Positions 2,886-37,135 of a stretch of DNA of 64,000 nucleotides are shown in pieces. The number at the start of each line of letters is the position of its first letter. The first letter of the stretch is position 1. The stretch lies in the NCBI RefSeq assembly GCF_000819845.1, contig NZ_CDCG01000046.1:62001-126000 (forward strand), read 5' to 3'. The DNA is from Aeromonas enteropelogenes. Lineage in GTDB: Bacteria; Pseudomonadota; Gammaproteobacteria; Enterobacterales; Aeromonadaceae. The position numbers and the translations under genes were made by a program. The notes beneath the pieces are model-generated. The model was not told where the DNA came from. It saw only the letters and a program-made list of their open reading frames with translations, and did not search any database.

Positions 2886-4478
2886 TTGTTAAGCAGCAAT
2901 AACATCACCATGCAGTTCGGCGCCAAGCCGCTGTTTGAGAACATCAACGTCAAGTTTGGCGGCGGCAACCGCTATGGCCTTATCGGCGCCAACGGCTGTG
3001 GCAAGTCCACCTTTATGAAGATCCTCGGCGGCGATCTGGAGCCCAGCGGCGGTAATGTGAGCCTGGACGTCAACGAGCGTATCGGTAAGCTGCGTCAGGA
3101 TCAGTTCGCTTACGAAGAGATGCGCGTACTGGACGTGGTCATGATGGGCCACACCGAGCTGTGGGCCGCCATCGCCGAGCGCGATGCCATCTACGCCAAC
3201 CTAGAAGCCACCGACGAAGATTACATGAAGGCTGCCGAGCTGGAAGGGCTGGTCGCCGAATATGACGGCTACACCGCCGAAGCCCGCGCCGGCGAGCTGT
3301 TGCTGGGTGTCGGCATTCCGCTGGAGCAGCACAACGGCCCCATGAGCGCCGTGGCGCCGGGCTGGAAGCTGCGGGTGCTGCTGGCCCAGGCCCTCTTCTC
3401 CAACCCTGATATCCTGCTGCTGGACGAACCGACCAACAACCTGGACATCAACACCATTCGCTGGCTGGAGCAGGTACTGAACGAGCGCGAGAGCACCATG
3501 ATCATCATCTCTCACGACCGTCACTTCCTGAACTCCGTCTGCACCCACATGGCGGATCTGGACTACGGCGAGCTGCGGGTCTACCCGGGCAACTATGACG
3601 ACTACATGCTGGCCGCCACCCAGGCGCGCGAGCGTCTGCTGGCCGACAACGCCAAGAAGAAGGCCCAGATCGCCGATCTGCAGTCCTTCGTTTCCCGTTT
3701 CAGCGCCAACGCCTCCAAGTCCCGTCAGGCCACCTCCCGTCTCAAGCAGATCGACAAGATCAAGATTGAGGACGTCAAGGTCTCCAGCCGCCAGAACCCC
3801 TTTATCCGCTTCGAGCAGGACAAAAAGCTCTATCGCAATATTCTGGAAGTGGAAGGCGTCTCCAAAGGTTATGGCGAGGGACCCCTGTTCAAGGGCCTCA
3901 ACATGATGCTGGAAGTGGGCGAGAAGGTCGCCATCCTGGGTACCAACGGTATCGGTAAATCCACCCTGATCAAAACCCTGGTAGGCGATTTGGCACCGGA
4001 CAGCGGCACCGTCAAATGGTCTGAAAACGCCCAGATCGGTTACTACGCCCAGGATCACGCCGAAGACTTCGACACCGATCTCAACGTGTTCGACTGGATG
4101 GCCCAGTGGAAACAGGAGAATGAAGACGAGCAAGCGGTGCGCTCCGTGCTCGGTCGTCTGCTGTTCTCCCAGGACGACATCAAGAAGCCGGTCAAGGTAC
4201 TCTCCGGTGGTGAGCAGGGCCGCATGCTGTTCGGCAAGCTGATGATGCAGCGCCCCAACATCCTGATCATGGATGAGCCGACCAACCACCTGGACATGGA
4301 ATCCATCGAATCGCTGAACATGGCGCTGGAGCTCTATCAAGGGACTCTCATCTTCGTCTCCCACGACCGTGAGTTCGTATCCTCCCTGGCGACTCGCATC
4401 CTGGAGCTGACCGAGAACGGCATCCGCGACTTCGGCGGTACCTATGAGGATTACCTGCGCACTCAGGGCGTACAATAA
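2886..4478 (+). CDS. ybiT: ABC-F family ATPase YbiT
   Basis: A cytoplasmic ABC-F protein with two ATP-binding cassettes and no membrane domain. Members bind the ribosomal E site and influence translation. Cassette 1 has Walker [10 protein letters not shown] (about residues 34-42) and Walker [10 protein letters not shown] (about 177-185). The inter-domain linker is rich in charged residues (about 240-310). Cassette 2 has GTNGIGKST, signature LSGGEQ and [11 protein letters not shown]. Sequence and 530-residue length match Enterobacteria YbiT closely. The start is TTG: reading from it gives [12 protein letters not shown], which aligns with the E. coli N-terminus (MLVSSNVTMQFG), and no ATG lies suitably upstream. 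The next in-frame ATG, eight codons in, would cut off the conserved first strand. Confidence 0.93.
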
Positions 4479-31336: not shown

Positions 31337-32662
31337 TTAGAGCTCGACCTCATCCAGCACGGTGCAGATGTGGGCAAAATCCGGCCTGGTCTCGGGCAGC
31401 TCTGCCAAACAGGCAGCCTTGAGGCGATGCAGGGAGGCGAGCCCCGCCTCATCGGCTTCACAATGTGCGAGCAGCTCTTCAAGCAGGCAGCCAAAGGCCC
31501 GCACCTCGAGCCGCTCCAGCCCGAAGGCCCGCGTCTGATCGGCACGCTCATAAAAAGAGGCCGCGCCAAAATCGGAGAGCAACACCCGCACCTCCTCACA
31601 TGGCCCTGTGGCATAAAGCATATTGTGGCCATAGAGGTCCCCGTGCATGATGCCGGCGCCGTGCAGATGGCGCGCCACCGAAGCGATCCCCCGTGCCAGT
31701 GCCATCATCCCGGGCAAGGTAAAGCGCAAGTCGGCGGCATAGATATCGCGAGTACAGGATTCCAGGCTCGGCGGCCCCGCCAGATTGGCAAACGCGGGAT
31801 CTATCAGCCCCATTACCAGCGCCGGAATGCCGGAGGGGTGATCCGCCACCCGCCCCACCACCTCGACCAGGTTGGGATGATTGCCTGCCGCCAGGGATGC
31901 CGTCATCTCACAGCGCGGCAAACCATCGCTGGTCACGGCCCCCTTGAAGAGCTTGACCGCCACCGCCTGACGCTCGCTCCGGTTCCAGCTCGCACTATGG
32001 ATGACGCCGGAGGCGCCCTGCCCCAATGGCTCACCCAGCGCCAGCTCATGCCAGCGGATATCTGCCACCTGCGCACTCGCCGCCATGCGCGACTCCAGCG
32101 CATCGCTAAAGGGGTTGCCGGAATAGGCGAGCCAGGTGAGGCGCGGTAGCGACAGCAGCCATTCGGGAAACGCCTCTAGCCGATTGGCTGCGATACGCAG
32201 CAGCTCCAGACGGCGGCAATTGGCGAGGGTCTCGGGCAGCTCGCGCAGGCGATTGCCCGCCAGCATCAGCTTTTGCAGGCCGTCACATTGGCCCAGCTCA
32301 TCGGGCAGGCTTTCAATTGCGTTATCAGTCAGGATCAACCAGCGCAAACCCGCGGGCAGCGACTTGGCCGACACGCGTGCAATCCGGTTGGCCTTGAAGC
32401 CCACCATAGTGAGCGCCGGGCAGCGCCCAAGCACCTCGGGCAACTCGGTAAAGCGGTTCTCTGAGCAGAAAATGATGCGCAGCTTGCTGAACCCGGCCAG
32501 CTCGTTCGGAAGTGTACTTAGCTGGTTGCCGGTCAGATCCAGCACCTCCAGCGTCTCTTTGATAGCCAGGATCTCGGGCGGGAACTCCGTCAGGTTTTCG
32601 GCGAGTTTGAGGTGGCGGGCGCCGCAGAGTTCACCTGCGCGCAGCTGTTCCAGGGTATGCAT
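31337..32662 (-). CDS. Leucine-rich repeat protein with C-terminal protein kinase domain
   Basis: A 441-residue cytoplasmic protein fusing leucine-rich repeats to a Ser/Thr-kinase-like domain. Repeats of about 23 residues with the LxxLxLxxNxLxxLP pattern fill about residues 20-185 (LEVLDLTGNQLSTLP, LRWLILTDNAIESLP, LQKLMLAGNRLRELP). The kinase part (about 205-441) has the glycine loop GQGASGVIHSA, the ATP-anchoring Lys in AVKLF, the catalytic loop HGDLYGHN and the metal-binding DFGAA, so it should be active. The HGDLYGHN loop replaces the usual HRDxxxxN Arg with Gly, as in some atypical kinases. The ATG at 32662 (MHTLEQLRAG) is chosen; the frame extends 46 codons upstream. Substrate and role are unknown. 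Confidence 0.87.
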   Translation of the reverse strand: MHTLEQLRAGELCGARHLKLAENLTEFPPEILAIKETLEVLDLTGNQLSTLPNELAGFSKLRIIFCSENRFTELPEVLGRCPALTMVGFKANRIARVSAKSLPAGLRWLILTDNAIESLPDELGQCDGLQKLMLAGNRLRELPETLANCRRLELLRIAANRLEAFPEWLLSLPRLTWLAYSGNPFSDALESRMAASAQVADIRWHELALGEPLGQGASGVIHSASWNRSERQAVAVKLFKGAVTSDGLPRCEMTASLAAGNHPNLVEVVGRVADHPSGIPALVMGLIDPAFANLAGPPSLESCTRDIYAADLRFTLPGMMALARGIASVARHLHGAGIMHGDLYGHNMLYATGPCEEVRVLLSDFGAASFYERADQTRAFGLERLEVRAFGCLLEELLAHCEADEAGLASLHRLKAACLAELPETRPDFAHICTVLDEVEL

Positions 32663-32975
32663 GACATCGTCTCTATCGGGGTGGCCGACTCGCGGCCAAC
32701 GGCGCTGCCGGTGGTTGGCCCAGCAGTCAAACCGGCAGTCAAAAAAAGAGGGGGCATTATAGAGAATGACGGCCGAAGATCCCCTGTTTTGTTGCCGCAA
32801 GGGCCGCTATCTGCGCGCAGCAAAGCGGCATGGGGGCAAAGAGAGCAAGATCCGGGGCGTGTCTACGAGGGCCGGTTGCCATAGTGGGTTCAAACCCGAG
32901 TGGGTCGAGCCCGTTGAGGGCCCAACCCACTGCCAACCCTGTGCGCCTGCACAACACACCTGCGAGGGAACTGCC
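32663..32975. other. 313-bp divergent intergenic region, LRR-kinase / SDR
   Basis: It contains the promoters of both genes (not pinpointed) and a compact three-armed inverted-repeat structure near the SDR start. No tRNA was confirmed. Confidence 0.4.
32883..32931 (+). other. Predicted three-way-junction structure upstream of the SDR gene
   Basis: AGTGGGTT (32883-32890) pairs with AACCCACT (32924-32931). Inside lie two small hairpins: ACCC-GAGT-GGGT (32894-32905) and GCCC-GTTGA-GGGC (32909-32921). Together they form a compact junction ending 44 nt before the SDR start codon. It could be a structured leader RNA or a dispersed repeat; neither is shown. Confidence 0.4.
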
Positions 32976-34954: not shown

Positions 34955-35764
34955 TTAACATTTCTCTGGTGAAGTAAGAGTTTCAATACGATCTTGATTT
35001 GATAGACAAACGTCAACTCCGTACTCAGTTAACTTGTAGCTAAAATACTCATTACCATTGAAATCAGAGCTATTTAATTTTTCGATCATGCCTAAACGGG
35101 TGAGTTTTATTATAGCTAAGTTGATTTTAGCCGAACTTAAATCATATTTAATGAAACGGTTATACAAATCCCAACTAACGCAACCATCAACATCTGAGTT
35201 TACAGACTCAAGCAACACTGACAATGCGATCATATCTGTGTCGGTGAGTGTTGCTAATTGAGCATTTACATCAATACGTGGTTTTTCCTGAACAGAATCG
35301 AGTTCAAGCAAACCTTGTAGTTTGAAAGCTCGTTTTATTTGTGTAGCGGAGTAATTGAGAGATGACGCTAAGTCTTCATCACTTCTGTTTGCATCAAAAT
35401 CAGTTGGAGTAATACCTAGAAGATCACTTGGGAAATGCAAGTCAACGCCACGTGGCTTTACAATAAAACACCGGTTCTTTCCAATTGCACCAATAAACAA
35501 ACCAAGTTCAAAAACTACGTTATCCCTTACAACATACTTTTCTCTAGATCTAATAATTGTCAGATCATCAGGAGAGAAAATGAAAATAGAGAAATCCACA
35601 GACTTAGCTTTTGAAATCAAGTCATCAAGAGCGTTACTCGAAATATTAAATGTACCATTCCGCCATATTGTAACTTCTGCATCAAATTCTAAGTTTTCAG
35701 CAATTGCATCTGCTATAGGTAGGCTTTCAACAGATGAACCGATAAATACTCTTGGCTTTCTCAT
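34955..35764 (-). CDS. TIR-domain protein of the CAP12/Pycsar-effector type with C-terminal winged helix
   Basis: A 269-residue protein. The N-terminal half (about 3-130) matches the TIR-like nucleotide-binding domain found in CBASS CAP12 and Pycsar effectors: RVFIGSSVE start, VTIWRNGTF, VDFSIFIFSPDD and the hallmark RDNVVFELGLFIG, whose glutamate is expected to be the NAD+-cleaving residue. Such TIRs degrade NAD+ to abort phage infection. The C-terminal part (about 165-260) looks like a winged-helix domain (INLAIIKLTRLGMIEK, FSYKLTEYG). No cyclic-nucleotide sensor domain or cyclase gene is present. The gene is AT-rich against its surroundings, implying transfer. GGAGAG precedes the ATG. It lies 63 bp after the small upstream gene on the same strand, so an operon is likely. 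Confidence 0.82.
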   Translation of the reverse strand: MRKPRVFIGSSVESLPIADAIAENLEFDAEVTIWRNGTFNISSNALDDLISKAKSVDFSIFIFSPDDLTIIRSREKYVVRDNVVFELGLFIGAIGKNRCFIVKPRGVDLHFPSDLLGITPTDFDANRSDEDLASSLNYSATQIKRAFKLQGLLELDSVQEKPRIDVNAQLATLTDTDMIALSVLLESVNSDVDGCVSWDLYNRFIKYDLSSAKINLAIIKLTRLGMIEKLNSSDFNGNEYFSYKLTEYGVDVCLSNQDRIETLTSPEKC

Positions 35765-35827: not shown

Positions 35828-36160
35828 TCATTTATTGAAATATGTCTCTAATACATTACCTGATGCCTCATCAACTCTGCAGTTGAATCCAGCAAAATTC
35901 CCCACCCATAATGGAGATTCACTTGTAATGTAGGTGTAGGCATCAACCGCACCTTGACCAATATCTGATGCCCGCCAAATAAAACTCCCCGCACGAGCAT
36001 AGCAAAATAGGTTTCTAGCCGGGCTATTTCTCTCAAAGGCCATCCAGTCATATATGACCAAAACGTGTTCGTGAATCAGTGATGCGCTGAGGACTGGATA
36101 TTCGCCTTTAAAGCGAACACCATCACCTTCAATCCAGTTTTCATGCACTGTAAGCTGCAT
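35828..36160 (-). CDS. Small protein of unknown function, upstream partner of the TIR gene
   Basis: A 110-residue acidic, aromatic-rich protein with no signal peptide or membrane segment. The start is supported by GAGG 5 nt upstream. The pattern NLFCYARAGSFIWRASD followed by PLWVGNFAGFNCRVDEASGNV resembles small single-domain beta-rich proteins often found as orphan genes beside toxin or defence loci. That likeness is a weak impression, not a family assignment. It shares low GC content and orientation with the TIR gene. It could regulate, neutralise or trigger the TIR protein, or be unrelated cargo. Confidence 0.6.
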   Translation of the reverse strand: MQLTVHENWIEGDGVRFKGEYPVLSASLIHEHVLVIYDWMAFERNSPARNLFCYARAGSFIWRASDIGQGAVDAYTYITSESPLWVGNFAGFNCRVDEASGNVLETYFNK

Positions 36161-36482: not shown

Positions 36483-36755
36483 TCAGATCGGGGTAATGGA
36501 GGTGATATGGGCATCTCCGTCCAGTGATTTGAAAATCTGCACCACGGCTTCGCCATGGATCGGTTTGGTAAGCGGCACAGTACTCTTGCACTTGAAGCGG
36601 TAGTTGGTGCCAGCCACCACCTGGGTGGAGACTTCAAAGGGTACGTACTGCACCCCGACAAATCCTTTCAGCGCCTGGTCAAATACCACCTGATCCTCGG
36701 CGGTCAGCTTGTGATATGCGGTCCATCCACCCACCAACACTGCTTGTTCTGACAT
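36483..36755 (-). CDS. Bacterial stefin (type 1 cystatin-like) cysteine protease inhibitor
   Basis: A 90-residue protein without a signal peptide. Its centre reads STQVVAGTNYRFKC (QVVAG at residues 45-49), the diagnostic first hairpin of cystatins, identical to animal stefins over QVVAGTNY. An N-terminal VGGW supplies the conserved glycine, and QIFKSLDGDAHI near 70 matches the stefin VFKSLPG strand and second loop. All three wedge elements that plug papain-like proteases are therefore present. The ATG at 36755 has GGAGAG 8 nt upstream; a longer frame exists but is not family-like. It lies downstream of guaA with its own terminator. The target protease (host, prey or endogenous) is unknown. 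Confidence 0.85.
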   Translation of the reverse strand: MSEQAVLVGGWTAYHKLTAEDQVVFDQALKGFVGVQYVPFEVSTQVVAGTNYRFKCKSTVPLTKPIHGEAVVQIFKSLDGDAHITSITPI

Positions 36756-37135
36756 ATCAAACTCTCCGTGCTCTATGGTCCCGACTCGTTTGGCTGTTCG
36801 GGCTGCGCCCCGTTGATTCAAGTGGTTTCCGGTCTCCACCGGGGCAGCAGCCGGTTGGCACGCTGATTCCCCTTTGCCGAATCGCGGCCCTGTTGAGGCC
36901 CGCATTGTCTGATAAGGCTTGCTAGCGCTTTATCACTTAGAGGCCGGTCGCAATGGGCATGAAAGAGCCTAGTGCCGATGCCAGAAATCGCCTCCTGTTA
37001 GATGTGACAGGAGCGAGCCCGGCCAAAGCTGCTAGCGGCAGAAAATTGCAGCGCAAACGATTAAAAAAAGAAAAGACGCCGCAAGGGCGTCTTTTTTTCA
37101 TTTTTATGCTTGAAGGGCGCAAGGGCGTTAGCAGC
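36756..37135. other. 380-bp region between guaA and the stefin gene
   Basis: It contains the guaA terminator at its right end and must hold the stefin promoter. A short CTAGCG motif recurs but forms no obvious element. No gene is supported. Confidence 0.4.
37069..37097 (-). terminator. Terminator of guaA
   Basis: AAAAGACGCC / GGCGTCTTTT with a 5-nt loop is followed on the minus strand by a T-rich tract (TTTTCTTTTTTTAA). Confidence 0.88.

Follow-up and report, generated by a model that had tools for sequence, protein, structure and literature searches.

What does a small protein with the motifs of animal cysteine protease inhibitors do in the cytosol of a gammaproteobacterium, what governs its production and where does its gene come from? 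These questions are raised by an open reading frame of Aeromonas enteropelogenes within the 64,000 nucleotides that we analyzed as a whole and refer to as the window. Its translation is MSEQAVLVGGWTAYHKL...STQVVAGTNYRFKCKS...VVQIFKSLDGDAHITSITPI. A sequence-only reading had described it as a bacterial stefin with intact cystatin motifs. The coordinates, residue numbers and motifs given there are correct on re-reading of the sequence (Table 1), and the N-terminus, MSEQAVLVGGW, is without a signal peptide, as had been stated. A listed frame of 140 aa is the same open reading frame with an upstream ATG. Neither the reading frame nor its match to cystatins is due to chance, because copies exist in Aeromonas, its codon positions are conserved as in a coding sequence and both sequence and fold searches return cystatins.

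The window protein is almost certainly a stefin homologue. As a single sequence it stays below the Pfam Cystatin cut-off (13.1 versus 22.2 bits), so that routine annotation would miss the gene. A phmmer search of the PDB with the single sequence returned a cystatin match (E=5e-4), and a profile of the family found the type 1 cystatin 6i1m as best match (E=1.8e-9). The AlphaFold model (pLDDT 91.6; two plasmid rows were left out of the underlying alignment) is predicted to adopt the cystatin fold with a helix across a beta sheet. Foldseek matched it to Dictyostelium cystatin A2, a Fasciola type 1 cystatin and stefin B from the papain complex with a probability of 1.00 each. The top 27 matches all belong to the cystatin family, with a modest best E-value of 1.3e-3 and TM-scores to stefin B of 0.62–0.67. 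With the eukaryotic type 1 cystatins (MEROPS I25A; human stefin B, Fasciola 6i1m, Dictyostelium cystatin A2 8gqq) the protein has in common the fold, a length of ~90–100 aa, the lack of disulfides (it contains a single Cys), a Gly near the N-terminus, the QVVAG hairpin and the F(K/Q)SL strand, which occurs in human stefins A and B. Its size and missing signal peptide agree with the single domain of ~100 aa typical of stefins (I25A), and G9 and Q45–G49 provide the N-terminal Gly and the QxVxG first hairpin of this family. However, overall identity to the eukaryotic proteins is ~22–29% in structural alignments, the predicted main helix comprises only ~11 residues and the GGW(T/S) N-terminus is that of bacterial stefins. 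The second binding hairpin is present as a loop in the model (E66-77, E83-89) but reads SLDG without Pro, whereas relatives mostly have PLxG and animal stefins Leu-Pro. Chagasin-type inhibitors (I42), which are known in bacteria, also inhibit C1 proteases but represent another fold and family and did not match the window stefin. The same genome encodes a second cystatin (G000:C29:22254-22427; L001, 1369-1740), a lipoprotein-like protein of 123 aa with the motif QVVSG that passes the Pfam Cystatin cut-off. It differs from the window stefin by its lipoprotein signal, its grouping with Vibrio-type bacterial cystatins and the lack of the DUF805 RNA described below. A related genus within the same order encodes lipoproteins of a similar kind (L149-L152, L154).

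Table 1. Features of the stefin locus in the window
Feature	Position	Strand	Details
Terminator-like hairpin after guaA	37095-37071	(-)	parts guaBA from leader and stefin
DUF805 RNA, 5' leader of stefin	36844..36774	(-)	Rfam RF03081, cis-regulatory, clan CL00115; 53.2 bits, gathering score 51.1
P1 hairpin	36822..36839	(-)	GUGG (36839-36836) with CCAC (36825-36822); all four pairs covary
Possible tertiary contact	36810..36832	(-)	P1-loop CC (36832-36831) with GG (36811-36810); 93.5% of cells paired, both pairs covary
P2	36792..36809	(-)	GGC (36809-36807) with GCC (36794-36792); 99% of cells paired, one covarying pair
P3, pseudoknotted with P2	36780..36802	(-)	CCC (36802-36800) with GGG (36782-36780); 97.4% of cells paired
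Shine-Dalgarno-like GGAG	36764..36767	(-)	between leader RNA and ATG; read from sequence
Stefin-like CDS	36755..36483	(-)	ATG start, 90 aa; G9-G10, QVVAGTNY 45-52, FKSL 75-78; no signal peptide
Terminator-like hairpin after stefin gene	36416-36393	(-)	

The proposal that the gene forms its own transcription unit downstream of guaBA is plausible for stefin and leader together, since terminator-like sites flank this putative one-gene unit on both sides; a promoter scan of the region gave no sigma-70 match. The Shine-Dalgarno-like site is kept in almost every Aeromonas copy. Behind the stefin gene, in a variable region, the window contains a CAP12/Pycsar-type TIR effector (34955-35764, minus strand; PF10137 and PADLOC TIR effector models) without an evident adjoining cyclase, possibly a defence gene, and beside it a 110-aa open reading frame of unknown family (35828-36160). 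Further along (31337-32800, minus strand), a leucine-rich-repeat protein of 487 aa is fused to a eukaryote-like protein kinase domain.

Full or near-full stefin copies with 83–98% identity were found in 23 of 37 Aeromonas genomes, while three genomes hold only 3' fragments and 11 nothing; at named Aeromonas loci, protein identity to the window stefin reaches up to 98%. Mean identity at codon positions 1 and 2 is 94% compared to 68% at four-fold sites, so that, judged by this difference, purifying selection acts on the gene within the genus. The chromosomal site after guaA is common to the Aeromonas copies where checked. Fragments of the 3' part (L018, L019, L269, and L022 downstream of guaA in an A. 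caviae record) suggest that an ancestral gene was lost. The spacer between RNA and ATG in A. caviae CECT 838 (L036, 2922-3003) has lost 10 nt, among them the Shine-Dalgarno sequence; together with the L022 fragment, decay of the stefin in A. caviae is possible.

Beyond Aeromonas, the statement that cystatins are rare in bacteria stands when counted per genome: even samples contained a stefin or cystatin in 9 of 399 Pseudomonadota genomes, some of them lipoprotein cystatins, and in 19 of 297 Bacteroidota-type genomes. Even so, one strict pattern scan of GTDB species genomes yielded 303 relatives, with Pseudomonadota, Bacteroidota, Chlorobiota, Cyanobacteriota, Fusobacteriota, Bacillota, Deferribacterota and Thermodesulfobacteriota among the matches listed. 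A bacterial stefin is not novel: according to Kordis and Turk 2009 (PMC2784779), stefins occur in 17 bacterial genera including Aeromonas, so that the Aeromonas protein itself is already reported. The same paper argues for horizontal transfer of bacterial stefins and proposes that they inhibit eukaryotic host proteases. Its bacterial stefins correspond to the window stefin in being single-domain and cytosolic, with the conserved G and QxVxG and a patchy distribution. We found neither regulation nor a leader RNA in the accessible parts of that paper; compared to them, the leader RNA, the wider distribution, the C1-free Aeromonas genomes and a bacterial proximate source are added here.

The leader RNA lies outside positions 36483-36755, the coordinates given by the sequence-only reading, and was missed by it. 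It passes the gathering score of the Rfam DUF805 RNA motif and has the consensus pairs P1 and P2, but the downstream gene is a stefin and not a DUF805 gene. The motif was reportedly described in a 2017 NAR paper. In the window, 18 nt separate the 3' end of the RNA from the stefin ATG, and this copy is the only one in the genome. A match also precedes the stefins of other Aeromonas, where some copies fall slightly under the Rfam cut-off (40.7–50.3 bits), and of the Bradyrhizobium plasmid pNK6d. To avoid circularity, a covariance model was built solely from DUF805 RNAs preceding non-stefin genes and then run on the stefin loci. It placed the RNA upstream of 60 stefin loci, in all cases on the sense strand and mostly 15–20 nt (modal 18) before the ATG; two loci with gaps near 330 nt carry a second stefin gene in between, directly 3' of the RNA. 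Overall, the RNA precedes nearly all stefins of the clade that holds the window protein, in Aeromonas, Pseudomonas, Rahnella, Azohydromonas, Bradyrhizobium and Bacteroidota. A search of seven genomes of Pseudomonas, Rahnella and Azohydromonas that carry a stefin gave exactly one DUF805 RNA in each, the one before the stefin. Pseudomonadota at large rarely have it: only two of 399 genomes, one being the window's own, compared to 51 of 297 Bacteroidota-type genomes. The other proteobacterial copy in this sample (L145, 1501-1570, minus strand, 79.4 bits) precedes a 114-aa non-stefin open reading frame (1131-1475).

Among the Aeromonas genomes, RNA and near-complete stefin occur together in 23 of 23 genomes with the stefin and in none of the 14 others, including the three with gene fragments; these 37 genomes are not independent events, as one deletion removes both RNA and gene, and the 14 genomes without them may reflect few deletions. 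Identity across Aeromonas amounts to 90% in the RNA core compared to 43% in the 66 nt upstream, 68% at four-fold sites of the stefin and 50% in the 3' flank, and conservation sets in sharply at the 5' boundary of the RNA. By this measure, the leader is under purifying selection. A coding N-terminal extension of the stefin was rejected as explanation: in several copies a stop codon stands in frame right before the ATG, so that the open frame hardly exceeds the protein in length. A mobile DNA repeat was rejected given a single copy in the window's genome and a fixed orientation and spacing. The RNA is very probably a functional cis-acting leader in Aeromonas. As far as the literature could be checked, the association of the stefin clade with an orphan structured RNA looks new.

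Covariation supports a hairpin plus pseudoknot in this leader. Whereas P1 and P2 belong to the Rfam consensus, P3 and the loop contact are added here by covariation. P1 (4 bp), P2 (3 bp), P3 (3 bp) and the two-pair contact are formed in 97.6% of cells of an alignment of 64 distinct sequences. Because P1 and P2 guided the fitting of this alignment, both lean towards the structure, while P3 and the contact lie outside the model. Cells with changes on both sides of a pair number 66 versus 18 in shuffles and far fewer in slid controls, and covariation exceeds all 500 shuffles and all slid controls. P3 alone accounts for 24 such cells, whereas the contact between the P1 loop and the region before P2, with its two pairs, is tentative. 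An unprompted mutual-information scan ranked 6-33, 8-31, 13-47 and 61-83 at the top. Another pseudoknot (45-47/62-64, 87.8% paired) was dropped in favor of P3 (61-63/81-83) with its higher pairing and stronger covariation. Folded alone, the window RNA is not unusually stable (z -0.97). A. veronii-type copies have the RNA 3' end GAGUCGGG in place of GAGUAGGG (window 36774-36844), which extends P3 to a possible 5-bp helix (CCCGA/UCGGG).

How might the leader act? The RNA lies just outside the footprint expected for an initiating ribosome, its spacing to the start codon is nearly constant and no terminator intervenes, for which reasons it would affect, in cis, how well the mRNA is translated or how stable it is. 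Whether it responds to a signal is a different matter. In a Bacteroidota sample, 59 proteins encoded downstream of the RNA comprised DUF805 (4), DUF1842 (4), aquaporins (3), PixA (3), TM2 (3), DoxX-like proteins (3), AHSA1 (2), a bacterial PH domain, an SCO4226-like protein and others, besides papain-family (2 of 59) and calpain-family proteases (1 of 59). No single function is evident among these genes, and both a general physiological signal and a self-contained enhancer of expression fit. There is a substantial, if less than even, chance that the RNA is a non-regulatory autonomous element that boosts translation or protects the mRNA 5' end: it is conserved, and perhaps functional, in two phyla whose translation initiation signals differ, the genes behind it are functionally diverse, and neither a terminator nor an obvious expression platform separates it from the ATG. 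However, general stress-sensing RNAs also precede diverse sets of genes, and the size of the pseudoknot would also fit an RNA that binds a ligand.

In the Flavobacterium locus L058, a DUF805 RNA (3657-3725) directly 3' of two tandem stefins precedes a protein of 114 aa (3745-4089), which by eye we take to resemble a mannan-binding MVL-type lectin. In L200, the RNA (8-76) precedes a protein (90-1457) with a papain-like active-site motif, so that this RNA class is found before stefins and before their typical target family, in different genomes. Because PixA/AidA, the MVL-like lectin and stefins follow the RNA, defence against grazers had been suggested as the theme of all its genes. This was given up, as the unbiased Bacteroidota sample yielded DUF805, aquaporin, TM2, DoxX, bPH and AHSA1, and such a role is kept solely as one possible role for the stefin. 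AidA is needed for Burkholderia virulence in C. elegans (PMC9060813).

With its motifs intact and no signal peptide, the suggested specialised cytoplasmic inhibitor is a plausible description of the window stefin, which probably is an active protease inhibitor. It would be a tight-binding reversible competitive inhibitor of C1A proteases whose Gly-rich N-terminus, QVVAG hairpin and second hairpin enter the active-site cleft. A search of the same genome for papain-like proteases had been put forward as a check: we found no C1 (papain-family) protease in any of the 37 Aeromonas genomes, and none in nine of ten other proteobacterial stefin carriers, the match in the tenth having an internal stop. 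These absences make a foreign target likelier in Proteobacteria, and on balance we consider a foreign target somewhat more likely than not, with the missing secretion signal counting against it, while genomes free of C1 proteases are still compatible with an endogenous target from some other protease family. Foreign targets would most likely be cathepsins with a digestive or phagosomal role in protists, animals and other grazers and hosts. Lacking both a secretion signal and an own C1 target, the stefin would meet them by release when cells are engulfed or lysed.

Alternatively, the stefin could regulate a non-C1 cysteine protease of its own cell, for example of the C10, C39 or calpain-like type, with the leader tuning the level of inhibitor. 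Its cytosolic location without a signal peptide would suit such a role, and in Bacteroidota, where the RNA also precedes the papain- and calpain-family genes mentioned above, many stefin-bearing genomes have C1 matches. However, these matches are mostly split into two short pieces in frames of ~400 aa, which suggests enzymes of the cytosolic bleomycin-hydrolase type. Given also the missing C1 proteases in Aeromonas and the other proteobacterial carriers, and no protease gene linked to the stefin within the window, we regard this alternative as unlikely. We consider it slightly less likely still that the fold was kept for another function, as a binding partner or as a storage or stress protein, with the motif retained for folding. 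Of the 27 relatives found by a profile search, 25 have QxVxG and two are broken copies, so that the conservation asked for by the sequence-only reading exists. Moreover, G9, Q45, V46, V47 and G49 are invariant in a 45-sequence alignment, although its genome-collection loci were chosen by the motif QVV[AN]G and motif conservation there is partly by construction. On the other hand, loss of inhibition and gain of new functions prevailed in the vertebrate families of the superfamily, according to Kordis and Turk (PMC2784779), and many other genes preceded by the RNA code for small proteins whose role is unknown (DUF805, DUF1842, PixA, TM2).

Regarding the origin of the gene, the distribution of the RNA on a stefin tree of 78 rows requires 5 changes compared to 22 in shuffles. 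Most RNA-bearing stefins form a single group (support 91), and within it Bacteroidota are interspersed with proteobacterial lineages; the Pseudomonas and Bradyrhizobium plasmid sequences, for example, group with Chryseobacterium. With 94 columns and weak inner branches, details of this tree are weak and Azohydromonas is unplaced. The Aeromonas stefin nests in the bacterial clade, and its nearest relatives are stefins of other bacteria. The tree, together with an RNA frequent in Bacteroidota-type genomes and almost absent from Pseudomonadota, makes it the simplest and a rather likely reading that RNA and gene were passed between bacteria as one unit. The direction would be from a Bacteroidota-like source to several lineages of Proteobacteria. 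A phage or plasmid origin of the Aeromonas gene was rejected given few viral or plasmid matches and a shared site after guaA where checked. The old transfer from a eukaryote suggested earlier lacks support as a direct transfer into Aeromonas, and acquisition from an animal host with a coincidental RNA match is hardly credible: QVVAGTNY and F(K/Q)SL are indeed common to animal stefins, but the nearest relatives are bacterial, the two human stefins stand apart on a very long branch, and an RNA otherwise found mainly in Bacteroidota scores over the Rfam cut-off and lies in register before dozens of related genes.

Taken as a whole, we favor with some reserve a cytosolic inhibitor of foreign papain-like proteases that is produced under a self-contained RNA leader traveling with its gene. 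More speculatively, and we would rather doubt than expect it, stefin and DUF805 RNA could be a mobile gene unit with a portable RNA switch functioning across phyla. Its pseudoknotted leader would sense a signal that Bacteroidota and Proteobacteria have in common and would turn on a set of small proteins, which in Proteobacteria comes down almost entirely to the stefin. These would serve in defence against eukaryotes that ingest the cells or attack them with proteases. The DUF805 RNA is a catalogued structured RNA for which we found no known function. In Proteobacteria it is rare and is nearly confined to a single small gene whose biochemistry can be predicted, so that its signal and mode of action are open to direct test in easily handled laboratory strains of Aeromonas or Pseudomonas. 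In addition, the leader is an independent marker of descent for bacterial stefins that points to transfer between bacteria, and it offers a first way to learn under which circumstances cells make a cytosolic inhibitor without a protease target of its own.
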